This document shows, piece by piece, positions 414-18,760 of a DNA stretch of 27,753 nt. The notes under the pieces are model-generated. The model worked only from the letters and a program-made list of their open reading frames with translations, did no database searches and was not told where the DNA came from. The stretch is from positions 1-27,753 of IMG/VR virus record IMGVR_UViG_3300028779_000026. One strand, given 5' to 3'. Every line of letters begins with the position of its first letter. Position 1 is the stretch's first letter. The position numbers and the translations under genes were made by a program. Source of the DNA: a virus.

Positions 414-755
414 TTACCATGGATAGTTCCTCTCTGCTTCACACTCTGCGCGAATCTCGTTTAATATCTCTTTGCGTTCTTCGGCGGTTAATTTATCCAT
501 TACCATTTCGACAAGCTCGTCCAACCCAAAACATTCGAGATATTCTTTAATACATGCGTTTTGTATGGATACTCTCGCCTCGTCGTATTTCCAATGCGTC
601 ACACCCATGATACATCCGTCTTCGTTCATGAATGTATCGGTACCCCCATGATAGAAACATAACGCTTCTTTTTCTGGATGCGTGCCACGAACAACAATTA
701 AATCGCAAGATGCGGGTTTTTCAATATTACAGTCGATCCATTTATCACTTTGCAT
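414..755 (-). CDS. DUF551-like small phage protein
   Basis: 113 aa starting MQSDKWIDCN, eleven bases inside the end of the DNA polymerase gene; a GGAG lies about 11 bases before the ATG. The opening W-I-D-C-N and the later G-V-T-H-W are the sequence signature of the DUF551 family, common in phages and of unknown function. The C-terminal ~45 residues (LDELVEMVMDKLTAEERKEILNE region) are charged and helical, extending beyond the usual short DUF551 unit. A second DUF551 protein lies at 3396-3593. A GTG at 779 would add eight residues but is less likely. Confidence 0.75.
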   Translation of the reverse strand: MQSDKWIDCNIEKPASCDLIVVRGTHPEKEALCFYHGGTDTFMNEDGCIMGVTHWKYDEARVSIQNACIKEYLECFGLDELVEMVMDKLTAEERKEILNEIRAECEAERNYPW

Positions 756-7088: not shown

Positions 7089-7286
7089 TTATTCGCAAAG
7101 CGATTTAAAAAACACCGGCTTTGTTCTTTTTTCAAATTTCACGGTATTATATTTTATGTAATCTTCTAGATTTATAAACTCATAACCAGAATCGGCGTAA
7201 CCTTCACATTGCACAAAGTCATGTTGCAGTTGTTTTAACTTCTCTACGGTGATGTTGTACTTTTTTGCTAATTCGCTGTAAGTCAT
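7089..7286 (-). CDS. Small protein with possible HTH
   Basis: 65 aa. The first ~25 residues, M-T-Y-S-E-L-A-K-K-Y-N-I-T-V-E-K-L-K-Q-L, match the opening of a helix-turn-helix (L-A-K-K-Y-x-I-x-x-x-x-L), but the rest is short and acidic/aromatic. A GGGGGA ribosome site precedes the ATG. It is the first gene after the duplicated 59-bp promoter element, so it should be among the earliest transcribed. Confidence 0.65.
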   Translation of the reverse strand: MTYSELAKKYNITVEKLKQLQHDFVQCEGYADSGYEFINLEDYIKYNTVKFEKRTKPVFFKSLCE

Positions 7287-7306
7287 GTTTTATCCCCCAT
7301 TGCGGG

Positions 7307-7365
7307 CAGCACATTGCCGACCTGATAGAGCGATCTTACTCCTTAGTGACGGGTACGTCAATAGC
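7307..7365. repeat. 59-bp promoter repeat, copy 1
   Basis: Identical base for base to 16696-16754. It contains a complete leftward promoter, the palindromic operator and about 26 bases of the transcribed leader. Similarity between the copies continues more weakly through the ribosome site (GGGGGATAAAAC versus GGGAGATAGAACG) to the start codon. Confidence 0.95.
7333..7361 (-). promoter_or_regulatory. Leftward promoter, copy 1
   Basis: TTGACG (7361-7356), 17-bp spacer, TAAGAT (7338-7333) on the minus strand. A TGACG-GGTA-CGTCA palindrome at 7347-7360 overlaps the -35 box. It reads into the genes from 7286 leftward. Confidence 0.8.
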
Positions 7366-12451: not shown

Positions 12452-14776
12452 ATGGAATTCATGCCGGCGGCCTTTCACGCTTTAAATTTGTATAAACAGT
12501 TTGTCGTATACCACATCAGACCTAGCACATCGCGACCCGGTAAGTCTGATAAAATCCCAGTAAACCTCAATACAGGGCTACCAGCCAACGCACACGACCC
12601 CGCCATATGGTTAAGCGGCGACGAGGCAATGGCCGCAGCCAACCGCATGGGTGCGCGTCATGGTGTAGGGTTCGTTTTTACAGATAACGATCCGTTTTGG
12701 TTTCTTGATATCGATTCTTGTGTGGTTAACGGCAAGTGGTCACCGCTAGCAGTCGAACTCCTGACGCGCTTAGTGGGGTGCGCAGTCGAGGTTTCGCAAT
12801 CGGGACAAGGATTACATATTATCGGATCGGGGATATTACCTGAGCATTGTTGCAAGCCTGCCGAGTTAAATATAGAACTCTATAACTCTGGTCGTTTCGT
12901 AGCTTTAACCGGCAACAATGCTGTGGGTAACGCGGCGTTTACGTCTGATGCGATCTGGGAGATAGCAAACCAATATTTTCCGCCCCGTTCGAATAGTAAC
13001 GGCAATGGCGATATATTACAACGTTTCGCAACACTTGTTACGCGTGGCGTCGATTCACGATGGGTTGGCTCTGTGGATGACTCGGATCTGATCCGTCGTG
13101 CTTGTTTGCCACATCGTAATACATTTAGTAGCAAAGCGACGTTTCGTGATTTATGGCAGCGTAACGTGCACATACTAGCCGGAGCTTACCCGGCACCGGA
13201 TAAACTGGACGGATACGATGACTCGAAAGCTGATGCGGCGCTTGCCCAGCATCTAGCGTTTTGGACGGGATGTGATGCGGAGCGCATGCGTACGCTCATG
13301 CTCGCATCAGGGCTCTATCGTGACAAATACGATCGTGGCGATTATCTGCCGCGAACGATTGTTAACGCGATAGAGATCAACACGACCGTCTGTATTGATC
13401 CCCCGCCAGTTGCGCCCGTCATGGTCGCGAGCATTGACACATCGTCTGCATTTCTCAACGCAGAGCAACAAGCCGCATATTTCGCCGGTTGTGTGTATGT
13501 GATCGAGCAAGATAAAATGCTTGTGCCGCGCGGACGATTGCTAAAACCAACAGTTTTTAAATCGGCGTATGGCGGTAAAATATTTACGATTGATGCTGCA
13601 AACTCACGTACAACTAAAAACGCGTTCGATGCTTTTATCGATTCTCAACTTGTGGTACATCCGCAAGTCGACGACACCTGTTTTCGTCCTGATTTACCGA
13701 CAGGTGCGATTATTAATCAGAACGGGTTTACTTACGTAAATACGTACTGGCCGATGGAAATACCCTGTGTTGAGGGTGACGTAACACTTTTTCTGGAACA
13801 CCTCATTAAGCTGTGTCCAGTGAAACGAGACGCAGATATCTTGCTGTCCTACATGGCAGCCGTCGTACAATACCAAGGCGTGAAATTCCAGTGGTGTCCA
13901 TTTATTCAAGGCGTTGAGGGAAACGGTAAAACACTATTAACGAAGTGCGTGCAATACGCTGTCGGATCAGCCTACACACATTTTCCCAAAGCTGCAGAAC
14001 TTGCCAGCCGGTTTAACGATTTTATGTACGAGCGCGTTTTTATTGCAGTAGAAGATATTTACGTAGCCGATGGGCTAAACGAAATATACGAAGCATTGAA
14101 GCCGATGATTACCGGAGAATGGCAAGAGATCGAACCAAAAGGCGGTAAAAAAGTTACACGGCAAGTATGTGCGAATTTCATCATTAATAGTAATCACAAA
14201 GACGGCCTTCGTAAGACGAGAAATAACCGAACCTTCGCACCTTTTTACACTGCACAGCAATCACTTGAAGACCTCAAGCGCGATGGGATGTCAGGTGGCT
14301 ATTTCGAACGATTGTATGGGTGGTTGAATGATGGTGGATTCGCTAACGTTAATCATTTTCTCCGGAACTATCACATACTCGATGAATATAACCCGGCTGG
14401 CTCTTGCAGACGAGTACCAACAACTTCGTGTACTGAGAGCGCAATCACTCAATCCGCAGGTCGTATCGAACAAGAAGTCATCGAGGCAATTGCATCTGGT
14501 CGTCCGGGATTCCGCAACGGCTGGGTGTCCACCACAGCATTAAATAATTTACTTGACGAGATACGCGCAACCGCTCGGATTGCACGCAACAAACGTGGTG
14601 AGCTACTTCGCAGTTTAGGGTACGAACTCCACAGAGGATTGCTTGAAGGCCGTACGACGTCTAACGTCATACCCGACGGTAATCGCCCGTGCCTGTACGT
14701 GCGATCAGATCATCTTACTCTACTATGGGATGATGGGCAGAGGATAACGAAGCAGTACGAGAAGGATCAAGTGTGA
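12452..14776 (+). CDS. Primase-polymerase / SF3 helicase fusion
   Basis: 774 aa; AAGGGA precedes the ATG. N-terminal prim-pol fold: G-V-G-F-V-F (71-76), F-L-D-I-D (84-88, metal-binding aspartates), S-G-Q-G-L-H-I (117-123, catalytic His) and R-F-V-A-L-T-G (148-154). A helical bundle follows around 255-310 (D-A-A-L-A-Q-H-L-A-F-W-T-G and Y-R-D-K-Y-D-R-G), as in NrS-1-type primase-polymerases. The C-terminal SF3 helicase has Walker A G-V-E-G-N-G-K-T (487-494), Walker B V-F-I-A-V-E-D (529-535), sensor N-F-I-I-N-S-N (575-581) and basic R-K-T-R-N-N-R. It would prime and unwind DNA for the family A polymerase. The gene stops in the first unit of a tandem repeat. Confidence 0.93.
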   Translation: MEFMPAAFHALNLYKQFVVYHIRPSTSRPGKSDKIPVNLNTGLPANAHDPAIWLSGDEAMAAANRMGARHGVGFVFTDNDPFWFLDIDSCVVNGKWSPLAVELLTRLVGCAVEVSQSGQGLHIIGSGILPEHCCKPAELNIELYNSGRFVALTGNNAVGNAAFTSDAIWEIANQYFPPRSNSNGNGDILQRFATLVTRGVDSRWVGSVDDSDLIRRACLPHRNTFSSKATFRDLWQRNVHILAGAYPAPDKLDGYDDSKADAALAQHLAFWTGCDAERMRTLMLASGLYRDKYDRGDYLPRTIVNAIEINTTVCIDPPPVAPVMVASIDTSSAFLNAEQQAAYFAGCVYVIEQDKMLVPRGRLLKPTVFKSAYGGKIFTIDAANSRTTKNAFDAFIDSQLVVHPQVDDTCFRPDLPTGAIINQNGFTYVNTYWPMEIPCVEGDVTLFLEHLIKLCPVKRDADILLSYMAAVVQYQGVKFQWCPFIQGVEGNGKTLLTKCVQYAVGSAYTHFPKAAELASRFNDFMYERVFIAVEDIYVADGLNEIYEALKPMITGEWQEIEPKGGKKVTRQVCANFIINSNHKDGLRKTRNNRTFAPFYTAQQSLEDLKRDGMSGGYFERLYGWLNDGGFANVNHFLRNYHILDEYNPAGSCRRVPTTSCTESAITQSAGRIEQEVIEAIASGRPGFRNGWVSTTALNNLLDEIRATARIARNKRGELLRSLGYELHRGLLEGRTTSNVIPDGNRPCLYVRSDHLTLLWDDGQRITKQYEKDQV

Positions 14777-14892
14777 CGGGGCTTACGGATAGTGTGACGG
14801 GGCTTACGGATAGTGTGACGGGGCTTACGGATAGTGTGACGGGGCTTACGGATAGTGTGACGGGGCTTACGGATAGTGTGACGGGGCTTACG
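14771..14892. repeat. 21-bp tandem repeat between convergent genes
   Basis: Five identical 21-bp units starting at 14771, 14792, 14813, 14834 and 14855, followed by a 17-bp partial copy at 14876 that runs into the terminator hairpin. The first unit contains the stop codon of the primase-helicase. Each copy carries ACGGGGC, so the single GCCCCGT at 14892 can pair with any of six partners. There are no spacers, so it is not a CRISPR array. Confidence 0.95.
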
Positions 14893-16555: not shown

Positions 16556-16674
16556 CACACACCCCACTCGTTATATTCGTTCGCTTCGTCTTCGTAGCGT
16601 TGGCAGATATCACAAACATATTCCTCTTTTACTTTCGTTTCACCGCACTGACACAATGTTTCATTCTCGTTCAT
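16555..16674 (-). CDS. Tiny zinc-ribbon protein, first after promoter copy 2
   Basis: 39 aa, MNENETLCQCGETKVKEEYV then C-D-I-C: C-x-C...C-x-x-C, a minimal zinc ribbon, followed by an acidic tail. GGGAGAT ribosome site. It is the first gene after the second 59-bp promoter element, so it should be strongly and early expressed. Confidence 0.65.
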   Translation of the reverse strand: MNENETLCQCGETKVKEEYVCDICQRYEDEANEYNEWGV

Positions 16675-16695
16675 CGTTCTATCTCCCGTTACGGT

Positions 16696-16754
16696 CAGCA
16701 CATTGCCGACCTGATAGAGCGATCTTACTCCTTAGTGACGGGTACGTCAATAGC
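16696..16754. repeat. 59-bp promoter repeat, copy 2
   Basis: Perfect duplicate of 7307-7365. It lies directly downstream of the terminator at 16761-16788, so it restarts transcription of the leftward genes after the previous transcript ends. Confidence 0.95.
16722..16750 (-). promoter_or_regulatory. Leftward promoter, copy 2
   Basis: TTGACG (16750-16745), 17-bp spacer, TAAGAT (16727-16722) on the minus strand, with the TGACG-GGTA-CGTCA palindrome at 16736-16749. It drives the tiny genes from 16674 leftward. Confidence 0.8.
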
Positions 16755-16794: not shown

Positions 16795-17016
16795 TCACTC
16801 GGTTGCGGGTGGTGTGGCCGACTGGTCATTTTCAGACACGACCGCTGGCTCTACGACAGACTTCGCTGCATCGACTGCCGCGACTACATCTTGCACTATC
16901 GACACGAAGGGCGCGAACTGCGGCAACATAGCGAAGTCTGTTAATACTGATTTTAACTCATCTTCGGTCATACTTGCTAAATACTTAACGATGAACTCTT
17001 TAATTATTGCGAACAT
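16795..17016 (-). CDS. Small acidic helical protein
   Basis: 73 aa, MFAIIKEFIVKYLASMTEDE start; amphipathic helices then an Ala/Val-rich stretch and a disordered acidic end (E-N-D-Q-S-A-T-P-P-A-T-E). AAGGAG nine bases before the ATG. Followed at once by a strong terminator, so it is the last gene of its transcript. No family recognised. Confidence 0.75.
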   Translation of the reverse strand: MFAIIKEFIVKYLASMTEDELKSVLTDFAMLPQFAPFVSIVQDVVAAVDAAKSVVEPAVVSENDQSATPPATE

Positions 17017-17028
17017 AGTTGTGGCTCC

Positions 17029-17256
17029 TTATGATTCTAACTTATTTATTAAATGATTCAGATAAAATCGTGCTTTTCGTAAATCTTCCAGACCATTTTT
17101 ATGCGAATGCCGCCATAGGTATTTAATAATATTACCCTCTAAAAACGGAAGCGACCCGACGACATCAATACATTCTATCGGCGTGTTACACGAAACGCAT
17201 TTGGCGTCGCTGCTCGTATAGTGGGCGGGGTGATCGACTGCATCGTGCTTAACCAT
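17029..17256 (-). CDS. DUF3310 family protein
   Basis: 75 aa. V-D-H-P-A-H-Y-T at residues 7-14, I-E-C-I-D-V-V in the middle, F-L-E-G-N-I-I-K-Y-L-W-R-H and L-E-D-L-R-K-A-R-F-Y-L-N-H-L-I: the full DUF3310 pattern of small phage proteins, sometimes listed as nucleotide-kinase-like but without demonstrated activity. A C-V-S-C pair is inserted after the HY motif. TAAGGAG ribosome site immediately upstream; it is the first gene after the structured region at 17281-17738. Confidence 0.92.
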   Translation of the reverse strand: MVKHDAVDHPAHYTSSDAKCVSCNTPIECIDVVGSLPFLEGNIIKYLWRHSHKNGLEDLRKARFYLNHLINKLES

Positions 17257-17280
17257 TCATTGCTCCTTAATGCTTAACTG

Positions 17281-17738
17281 TCTCGGCTTCACGTCTCCCG
17301 GCCGAGGCGGGCTGTATCAGTTGACTAGCAAACTGCGACGTATTCGGCCGGGCATACGGTACCCGGCTTGCTGCTTTGGGCGGTCGTTAGCAACCACCCT
17401 TGCGCTCTTTACAGTAGGCACGAATTGAACGTGCTGTCCCCATCAACCGGGATCGAACCGGACACCCGGACATGACTATAGCTGGTCTGCATCGCATGAA
17501 CGTGGCCTTGTCCACATGCGGACTACTGCCCTGTATCACATTACTGTGATCGTAGTCAGGCCAGAGGGGGTGCTATAATCACTCGTGTCACCGTCCACGA
17601 CGCTACTGTGTATTATTCGTAGCGGGTGCTATCACACACCCGCCGTTTCATCAAGGAACTGGGCACAACTCGGCTTTACGCAAGGATACCCACGCGTCGG
17701 CGCCCCCGACAGGTTGCTGTGACCGTAGCGTCACTATA
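17281..17738 (-). ncRNA. Candidate large structured RNA, gene-free hairpin cluster
   Basis: About 460 bp with no credible gene in a genome that otherwise wastes no space. At least eleven short perfect inverted repeats lie side by side: 17282-17306, 17318-17335, 17347-17367, 17378-17399, 17418-17434, 17447-17461, 17493-17520, 17535-17550, 17583-17600, 17622-17643, 17696-17710 and 17719-17734. The minus strand is favoured because two stems (17378-17399 and 17411-17417 with 17523-17529) need G-U wobbles that become A-C mismatches on the plus strand, and because loop 17541-17544 is a GNRA (GTAA) only on the minus strand. Inside is a tRNA-like acceptor plus T-arm. No canonical tRNA, tmRNA or RNase P RNA was recognised. 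Long 5' leader of the DUF3310 gene is the main alternative. Confidence 0.6.
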
Positions 17739-18065
17739 TCAATTCGGCCAGTCCGGATCAACCATTTTACCGTCTCGCAAAGTATGCCGCAGCGCGATTA
17801 TCTTATTCGCATGCTCTGGGGGAATTAGCATCCTGAGGCGCCCGGTTTCCATACTATCCGGATTACCTGATCCCATCGTACGGGTAATCGGCGTATACCC
17901 ATTAGCAACGAGCCATAGGTTTGCCGCACGATCCAGAAGGGATATGTATTCATTCGCACGCGCCACGGGTATATACACGGTGGGCTGTCTACAAACCTTT
18001 TCAAGTTTTTTCTTGTGGTAATCACAATAAACGACCCTTCTGATTTCTGAGTAGCATCCACACAT
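17739..18065 (-). CDS. Hypothetical protein
   Basis: 108 aa, MCGCYSEIRRVVYCDYHKKK start: three N-terminal cysteines and a histidine could hold a zinc ion. The rest, V-Y-I-P-V-A-R-A-N-E-Y-I-S-L-L-D-R-A-A-N-L-W-L-V-A-N-G, is helical. The start shares one base with the preceding stop. It ends where the hairpin cluster begins, so the structured RNA may be its 3' region. No family recognised. Confidence 0.7.
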   Translation of the reverse strand: MCGCYSEIRRVVYCDYHKKKLEKVCRQPTVYIPVARANEYISLLDRAANLWLVANGYTPITRTMGSGNPDSMETGRLRMLIPPEHANKIIALRHTLRDGKMVDPDWPN

Positions 18066-18424
18066 TATCGCCTACTCCTGTTTCTTAGTGCCGCGCCGTC
18101 CCCATGGTGATAGCCGGGTGGTAGCCCCCTAGTGTGGGCTGGCTCCATCAGCATGCGTGCATCCTTCAGTGCCTCAACATGGGCGAGCAATCCGGGCTCG
18201 TCATCAGGATGAACCCACACATTGATTAAACGGTAGCCTCTCGTTTTATATATTCGCGACTGTGAAAACCCATTTCGGTAACTGCGGGCTGTACACCTAA
18301 TGCACTCCATACAGCTACCGTTGCGAACGTATCGCTCCGCTACGTGGCCGTTTTTGCACGCTCGACCAGTAAAATATGTGTTCCGACCATCCTCGAAGGC
18401 CTCGGAACGCGTCGTAATCCTCAT
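18065..18424 (-). CDS. Zinc-binding phage protein (endonuclease VII-like motif)
   Basis: 119 aa from MRITTRSEAFEDG, with GAGGAC five bases before the ATG. The sequence Y-F-T-G-R-A-C-K-N-G-H followed by R-N-G-S-C-M-E-C is the G-x-x-C-x-x-G-H...C-x-x-C treble-clef pattern found at the front of many phage endonuclease VII/HNH-like and other zinc proteins. No clear catalytic H-N-H follows, so nuclease activity is doubtful. An ATG at 18505 would extend the gene, but it has no ribosome site and lies in a repeated TCCGTCAT element. This is the first gene of the leftward transcript. Confidence 0.75.
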   Translation of the reverse strand: MRITTRSEAFEDGRNTYFTGRACKNGHVAERYVRNGSCMECIRCTARSYRNGFSQSRIYKTRGYRLINVWVHPDDEPGLLAHVEALKDARMLMEPAHTRGLPPGYHHGDGAALRNRSRR

Positions 18425-18494
18425 TTTTGTGTCCTCGTAAGTAAAAAAGCAGTTTATCACGGGGGTGTGAACAGTGCCATTGATATTTCGTAAA

Positions 18495-18760
18495 AGTTCC
18501 GTCATGGGTAAAATTTGTTTTTTATCATTAAGTTAGACCTATTTCTGCCGGATGACGGATGAAAACCCTTACCCACACCGATTTAGCAGGATTGTAGTAT
18601 AGGGCATGGATATAACATACCATATTATCATCCTACAGTTTCGCTGGAGATTGTTATAGTTCCGTCATTCCGTCATAAATAGTAATAATAGTAATAAAAA
18701 CAATAGTTTACCCAATGACGGAACTCTATGACGGAACTATGACCGAGTATTCATCCGTCA
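18495..18760. repeat. Array of TCCGTCAT / ATGACGGA sites (origin- or operator-like)
   Basis: The 423 bases between genes (18425-18847) hold at least six copies of an 8-11-mer: AGTTCCGTCAT at 18495; ATGACGGA at 18552; two head-to-tail TCCGTCAT at 18661 and 18669; ATGACGGAACT at 18715 and 18728, with a decayed ATGACCGAGT at 18739 and TCATCCGTCA at 18751. The pairs at 18661-18676 and 18715-18738 face each other across a 38-bp A+T-rich stretch (AATAGTAATAATAGTAATAA). Inverted iterons around an AT-rich core are typical of replication origins; repressor clusters look similar. Confidence 0.7.

Follow-up and report, generated by a model that had tools for sequence, protein, structure and literature searches.

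What does a phage carry between two genes of an otherwise tightly packed gene series, where no protein appears to be encoded? The question is raised by a phage contig from IMG/VR, 27,753 bases long, which we analysed over its whole length (the window), and whose primase is 45-49% identical to those of Klebsiella phage JD001-like myophages, which are distant relatives, and whose portal protein is closest to those of Leptolyngbya phages (49%). Using an ORF list and codon scores we placed the stretch between two minus-strand genes, within a longer run of genes in that direction:

18065-18505, minus strand: gene matching PHROG families that include endonuclease VII
17739-18065, minus strand: upstream gene of 108 aa, same direction, with no PHROG match
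17733-17761, minus strand: weak promoter-like site just upstream, TTGATC-17-TATAGT, its second hexamer preceded by TG; such sites are at chance level in the region
17257-17738, minus strand: gene-free stretch
17029-17256, minus strand: downstream gene of 75 aa, matching PHROG families named nucleotide kinase
16795-17016, minus strand: gene, part of the minus-strand run

The initial annotation had described a stretch without genes, and this holds, as the only ORFs inside it are of at most 52 aa together with one antisense ORF, all codon scores are negative (-0.05 to -0.11), and stops occur in all six frames, with no ORF of coding-like codon use. At 56%, the G+C content of the stretch exceeds that of the window (50%) and that of the next gene (41%). 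Scanning for promoters and terminators detected no terminator-like site in the region, and a blastn search of the region against phages detected no homologs (best E 0.5). The region is also absent from 80 relatives picked by primase alignment, and a single further copy was found, which is identical and has one mismatch in 6 kb of flanking sequence. Elsewhere in the window there is an 84-bp imperfect repeat of 93% identity at two distant places (7283-7365 and 16671-16754), and self-matches mark a short tandem repeat of ~21 bp where the primase gene ends (14770-14892).

Hairpins and strand preference

A crowd of about a dozen hairpins had been taken as a possible sign of a large structured RNA on the minus strand. 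The hairpins are present but say little by themselves: over 458 nt the minus strand folds with a z-score of -2.17, with 2 of 100 shuffles equally good, and the plus strand with a z-score of -0.75, while in 200-nt sliding windows the best z here is -1.8 and the region is no outlier genome-wide. Because the fold z is moderate and the sliding windows are unremarkable, sequence as rich in G+C as this would carry nearly as many 5-7 bp stems by chance. The suggested preference for the minus strand is backed by the fold z-scores, by the direction of the genes and by two T-arms that both lie on that strand, and the GNRA loop reported there is found as a GUAA-capped hairpin at 17535-17550. A structured RNA of the minus strand is still the best reading, but not as an ornate RNA of a dozen hairpins, since the part that stands out is a tRNA-like cloverleaf of ~200 nt with two T-arms.

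A predicted cloverleaf with two T-arms and no recognisable anticodon

The unconstrained minimum free energy (MFE) structure of 17406-17612 is a 199-nt cloverleaf, closed by a pair that the initial annotation had half seen and called acceptor-like, which proves to be a real, tRNA-like signal. Its parts, with the leader and an alternative acceptor strand, are as follows:

17725-17732, minus strand: leader GACGCUAC, which can pair with 17599-17606, capturing the acceptor 5' strand (full-length fold)
17603-17609, minus strand: acceptor stem 5' strand ACAGUAG, 7/7 Watson-Crick pairs with 17411-17417; in the MFE of 17406-17612, pair probability 0.90-1.0
17583-17600, minus strand: D-arm-like hairpin UCGUG-GACGGUGA-CACGA with GG in the loop; from MFE and descriptor, pair probability 0.6-0.7
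17572-17582, minus strand: 5' strand GUGAUUAUAGC of an 11-bp helix in the anticodon-arm position, pairing with 17472-17482; probability 0.7-1.0 in every folded context
17483-17571, minus strand: apical domain of 89 nt where the anticodon loop would be, holding the GUAA-capped hairpin (MFE)
17523-17529, minus strand: alternative acceptor 5' strand GCAGUAG of a 119-nt form, 7/7 pairs, one of them G-U
17472-17482, minus strand: 3' strand GCUAUAGUCAU of the 11-bp helix (MFE)
17446-17462, minus strand: T-arm 1, UCCGG-UUCGAUC-CCGGU, 4/5 pairs (consensus T-arm)
17435-17445, minus strand: linker UGAUGGGGACA of 11 nt with GG, between the T-arms (from the sequence)
17418-17434, minus strand: T-arm 2, GCACG-UUCAAUU-CGUGC, 5/5 pairs (consensus T-arm)
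17411-17417, minus strand: acceptor stem 3' strand CUACUGU, with discriminator A at 17410 and no encoded CCA

The D-arm-like hairpin, with 5/5 pairs, begins two nucleotides past the acceptor 5' strand, and the 11-bp helix follows directly. T-arm 1 costs 0.9 kcal/mol relative to the MFE and has an ensemble probability of only about 0.1, and the 17-mer of T-arm 2 is identical to the T-arm of ARAGORN tRNAs in three phage contigs (L014, L024 and L026). In the window RNA there is no recognisable 7-nt anticodon loop, its place being taken by the 11-bp helix with the apical domain, and for this reason the RNA probably does not decode. ARAGORN called no tRNA on it, and the canonical tRNA model (RF00005) did not match it at threshold; the best tRNA-type match was a sub-threshold tRNA-Sec of 15.1 bits, which belongs to the 119-nt alternative form, less stable by 12 kcal/mol than the one of 199 nt. 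When all 458 nt are folded, the leader breaks up the acceptor, and this bears out an earlier remark that some stems are mutually exclusive, with the 5' acceptor strand pairing with its 3' partner or being captured by the leader. Removal of the leader, as by RNase P, would therefore favour the cloverleaf.

The 207-nt piece alone has a fold z of just -1.3, and the improbability lies in the combination of elements. Consensus T-arms (GTTCRANYC plus at least 4 bp) occur only twice in the window on both strands, both times on the minus strand of the stretch and 28 nt apart. Such a pair was found in 0 of 20,000 region-like random sequences and at 0.0025 pairs per window-like random sequence, and among 1.42 Mb of relatives only in L028, which has real tRNAs. 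Likewise, a cloverleaf descriptor had one match in the window, none in 8000 region-like random sequences and 0.055 per window-like random sequence, odds that are somewhat optimistic as the descriptor was written after the fold had been seen. With T-arm 2 fixed and the upstream sequence shuffled 20,000 times, any such cloverleaf arose in 667 cases and one with a helix of at least 11 bp in 5. Given this joint improbability in random and shuffled sequence, the two T-arms and the cloverleaf are unlikely to be due to chance.

Comparison with named RNA classes

The window RNA shares with canonical tRNAs, including those of phage arrays, a 7-bp acceptor, a D-arm with GG in the loop, a discriminator A and a consensus T-arm, which is joined directly to the acceptor, but it differs in lacking a 7-nt anticodon loop, in its second T-arm, in its length of 199 nt and in the absence of an ARAGORN or Rfam call. 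With tmRNA (RF00023, RF01849 and RF04321) it has in common a tRNA-like acceptor and T-arm and a long helix replacing the anticodon stem; however, the tmRNA covariance models do not match it, no tag frame or pseudoknots were recognised, A3:U70 stands in place of G3:U70, and there is an extra T-arm. GOLLD and ROOL are structured phage RNAs with no assigned function that often lie near tRNA islands (PMC12286853), and they are the nearest precedent for the setting, but the window RNA differs from them in size and fold and the Rfam models leave it unmatched, although the same search finds GOLLD in phage locus L315. The group I intron model (RF00028) is likewise unmatched by the window RNA, while the same search finds an intron in L342. 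The initial annotation had recognised none of GOLLD, ROOL, tmRNA, RNase P RNA or a group I intron, and it was right to do so, as there is no Rfam match at gathering and nothing relevant at E<=5.

Some other candidates were rejected. A group I intron assigned by eye, with GACUAC/GUAGUC as P7, has its elements in the wrong order and no Rfam match. A canonical tRNA nested in an outer tRNA would require a tRNA in the 89-nt insert, which contains none. Such nesting does occur in other phage loci, with tRNA-Ile(gat) in L146 near 5078 (plus strand), inside AACACGG...CCGTGTT, tRNA-Phe(gaa) in L186 near 5058 (plus strand), inside CGAGCAA...TTGCTCG, and a mini-tRNA in L208 (minus strand), inside GGGAGTG...CACTCTC, each within the anticodon loop of another tRNA. 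L011, with the same T-arm and a 7-bp acceptor, was considered as a second copy, but the T-arm there shares bases with the end of an apparent rz1 frame and the set had been preselected for T-arms, so we treated it as chance. L116 and L117 have a 16-mer in common with the 5' part of the window RNA and no further similarity, and were set aside.

Compact two-T-arm RNAs in other phages

We scanned IMG/VR for two T-arms separated by 12-42 nt, a spacing too short for tandem tRNAs, and obtained at least 120 stretches, a lower bound that a narrower scan reached as well; in 257 Gb of bacterial and archaeal genomes, 43 stretches came from a comparable scan. In the loci examined, 76 pairs have both stems with 4 or 5 of 5 pairs, of which about a tenth would be expected by chance (inferred from pairing odds, among the matches listed). 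The anticodon arms of tRNA-Leu(CAA) and tRNA-Ser(CGA) can mimic paired T-arms, and pairs overlapping ARAGORN calls were tallied separately. Among the matches listed, 145 pairs overlap no ARAGORN tRNA, and 38.6% of these have a perfect 7-bp acceptor directly after the second T-arm, compared with 2-6% in register-shifted controls.

The resulting elements, mostly 84-100 nt long, have a common order of acceptor, short D-arm with a UGG-type loop, hairpin, T-arm 1, linker, T-arm 2 and acceptor, in which the middle hairpin replaces the anticodon loop and often has GACG or a different small loop at its tip, and the linker is 7-12 nt long and contains GG in 30/30 members. Since MAFFT had misaligned the 5' acceptor of diverse members, a covariance model (R1) was seeded on five well-registered members. 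With a cut-off of 38 bits, R1 recovered at least about 40 distinct members; true tRNAs scored about 34 bits or less, and 1.44 Mb of phage DNA unselected for T-arms gave nothing above 23 bits. In 41 aligned members, 95.7% of pair cells hold standard pairs (shuffled 62.5%), both partners have changed in 293 cells (shuffled 72), and covariation is 0.78 (shuffled 0.18, slid at most 0.12); in these figures the search pattern had preset the T-loops and two G-C pairs per T-stem, a closed acceptor and two middle hairpins had been required of the seeds, and the sequences were aligned to fit the structure. Neither the register-shift control nor the linker GG depends on the choice of pattern, seeds or alignment. 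In the 16 loci scanned with Rfam no family covers the compact element at gathering, except in two loci, where it forms insert sequence within permuted tmRNA matches, and for one compact element alone the best match in Rfam 15 was tRNA, at 19.3 bits (threshold 29). Compact two-T-arm tRNA-like RNAs form a widespread, apparently unnamed phage family. We found no two-T-arm tRNA-like phage RNAs in the open literature, a search largely outside subscription journals and so no proof of novelty.

Loci with compact RNAs include L271:2272-2361 (plus), L187:2413-2501 (minus), L342:856-943 (plus) and L253:9836-9920 (minus). A same-strand tRNA lies within 300 nt of 19/31 compact RNAs, usually 2-12 nt away, and Synechococcus phages S-CREM1 and B23 have the element in an unannotated slot between tRNAs. 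At L329:1246-1331 (plus) and L343:4748-4831 (plus) a circularly permuted tmRNA gene carries it in its intervening sequence. Larger forms also exist, with one acceptor and three T-arms, at L126 6400-6545 (minus; 135 nt, fold z -3.8) and at L141 near 513-600 (plus; 119 nt); in both, GG-loop hairpins or linkers lie between the T-arms. Seven further loci (L130, L131, L135, L170, L174, L182 and L183) have a canonical phage tRNA followed by another T-arm within 13-34 nt, possibly a half-tRNA or an acceptor-T minihelix.

The window RNA has the plan of the compact RNAs (L271, L187, L342, S-CREM1 and B23), with a single 7-bp acceptor (7/7) enclosing a D-arm, an anticodon-less part, a T-arm, a GG linker that at 11 nt falls within the 7-12 nt of the family, and a second T-arm, but it has a large domain where they have a small middle hairpin. 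R1 gave the window region 14.4 bits in another register, and none of the 80 primase-aligned related phages has a compact member. As the plan is common to both but R1 does not match in register, we regard the window RNA as an enlarged look-alike of the compact family, not shown to be a member.

A putative decoy or scaffold

We consider it probable that the minus strand of 17410-17609 encodes a tRNA-like RNA of ~200 nt with two T-arms and no recognisable anticodon, which we prefer to read as a decoy or scaffold. What it works like and what it belongs to are two separate answers: it would work like a tRNA-shaped non-decoding RNA, and it appears to be a member of nothing named. RNase P removes the leader of pre-tRNAs, and the RNA, in which the 7-bp acceptor would close the D-arm, the 11-bp helix with its 89-nt domain and the two T-arms with their GG-containing linker, may be cut from the transcript in the same way as a pre-tRNA, at 17609/17610, with 3' processing at 17410 and subsequent CCA addition. 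The resulting elbow-and-acceptor module could then engage host tRNA-binding factors and, during infection, act as a putative stable decoy or scaffold for enzymes that handle or attack tRNAs. There is precedent in other phages for one acceptor with multiple T-arms, in the compact covarying family and in the larger three-T-arm forms of L126 and L141. The tRNAs that L028 has beside its terminase genes also speak for a tRNA-like RNA here.

The main rival is decay from a tRNA cluster, in which deletion and insertion removed the anticodon parts from one or two phage tRNA genes, and the conserved T-arms and acceptor are functionless leftovers. The presence of two T-arms fits such an origin, as do the two alternative acceptor 5' strands (ACAGTAG and GCAGTAG), each then followed by GTGGAC...CACG, as after a duplication, and L028, a relative by its portal protein, has true tRNAs in a similar position, beside its terminase genes. 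In a decaying cluster, however, long-range pairs should break first, yet the acceptor has kept 7/7 Watson-Crick pairs, T-arm 2 and the D-arm 5/5 each, and the 11-bp helix is intact; moreover, intact multi-T-arm RNAs with covarying stems exist in many phages. We regard decay as unlikely. We think it less likely still that the tRNA-like fold is a cis-acting element of the operon, serving as a processing site for RNase P or RNase III, or as a switch between leader and acceptor that controls the 75-aa gene, an explanation that is compatible with the preferred one in structure and differs in function. Its place in a series of genes in the same direction and the competition of 17725-17732 with the acceptor would suit this role, but the region lacks a terminator-like site and related phages with a homolog of the 75-aa gene lack the element. 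That the stretch is an ordinary untranslated spacer of the minus-strand operon, with chance hairpins and a coincidental resemblance to tRNA, agrees with the unremarkable local fold z-scores, the lack of homologs beyond the identical contig and the related phages without the region, but is improbable in view of the joint rarity of two T-arms and a cloverleaf, the raised G+C and the length of gene-free sequence in so tightly packed a gene series.

Returning to the decoy or scaffold reading, the window RNA may, as we tentatively propose and with rather less confidence, belong in enlarged form to a new class, found across phages, of tRNA-like RNAs that lack an anticodon, have at least two T-arms (two elbows) in one acceptor stem, are processed like tRNAs and play a non-decoding role. 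The tRNA arrays of phages are generally regarded as codon supplements. The covarying RNAs with a doubled T-arm and no anticodon, found among true tRNAs at distances of 2-12 nt, suggest that some array members are non-decoding, and the compact family would help to explain unannotated gaps in phage tRNA arrays.
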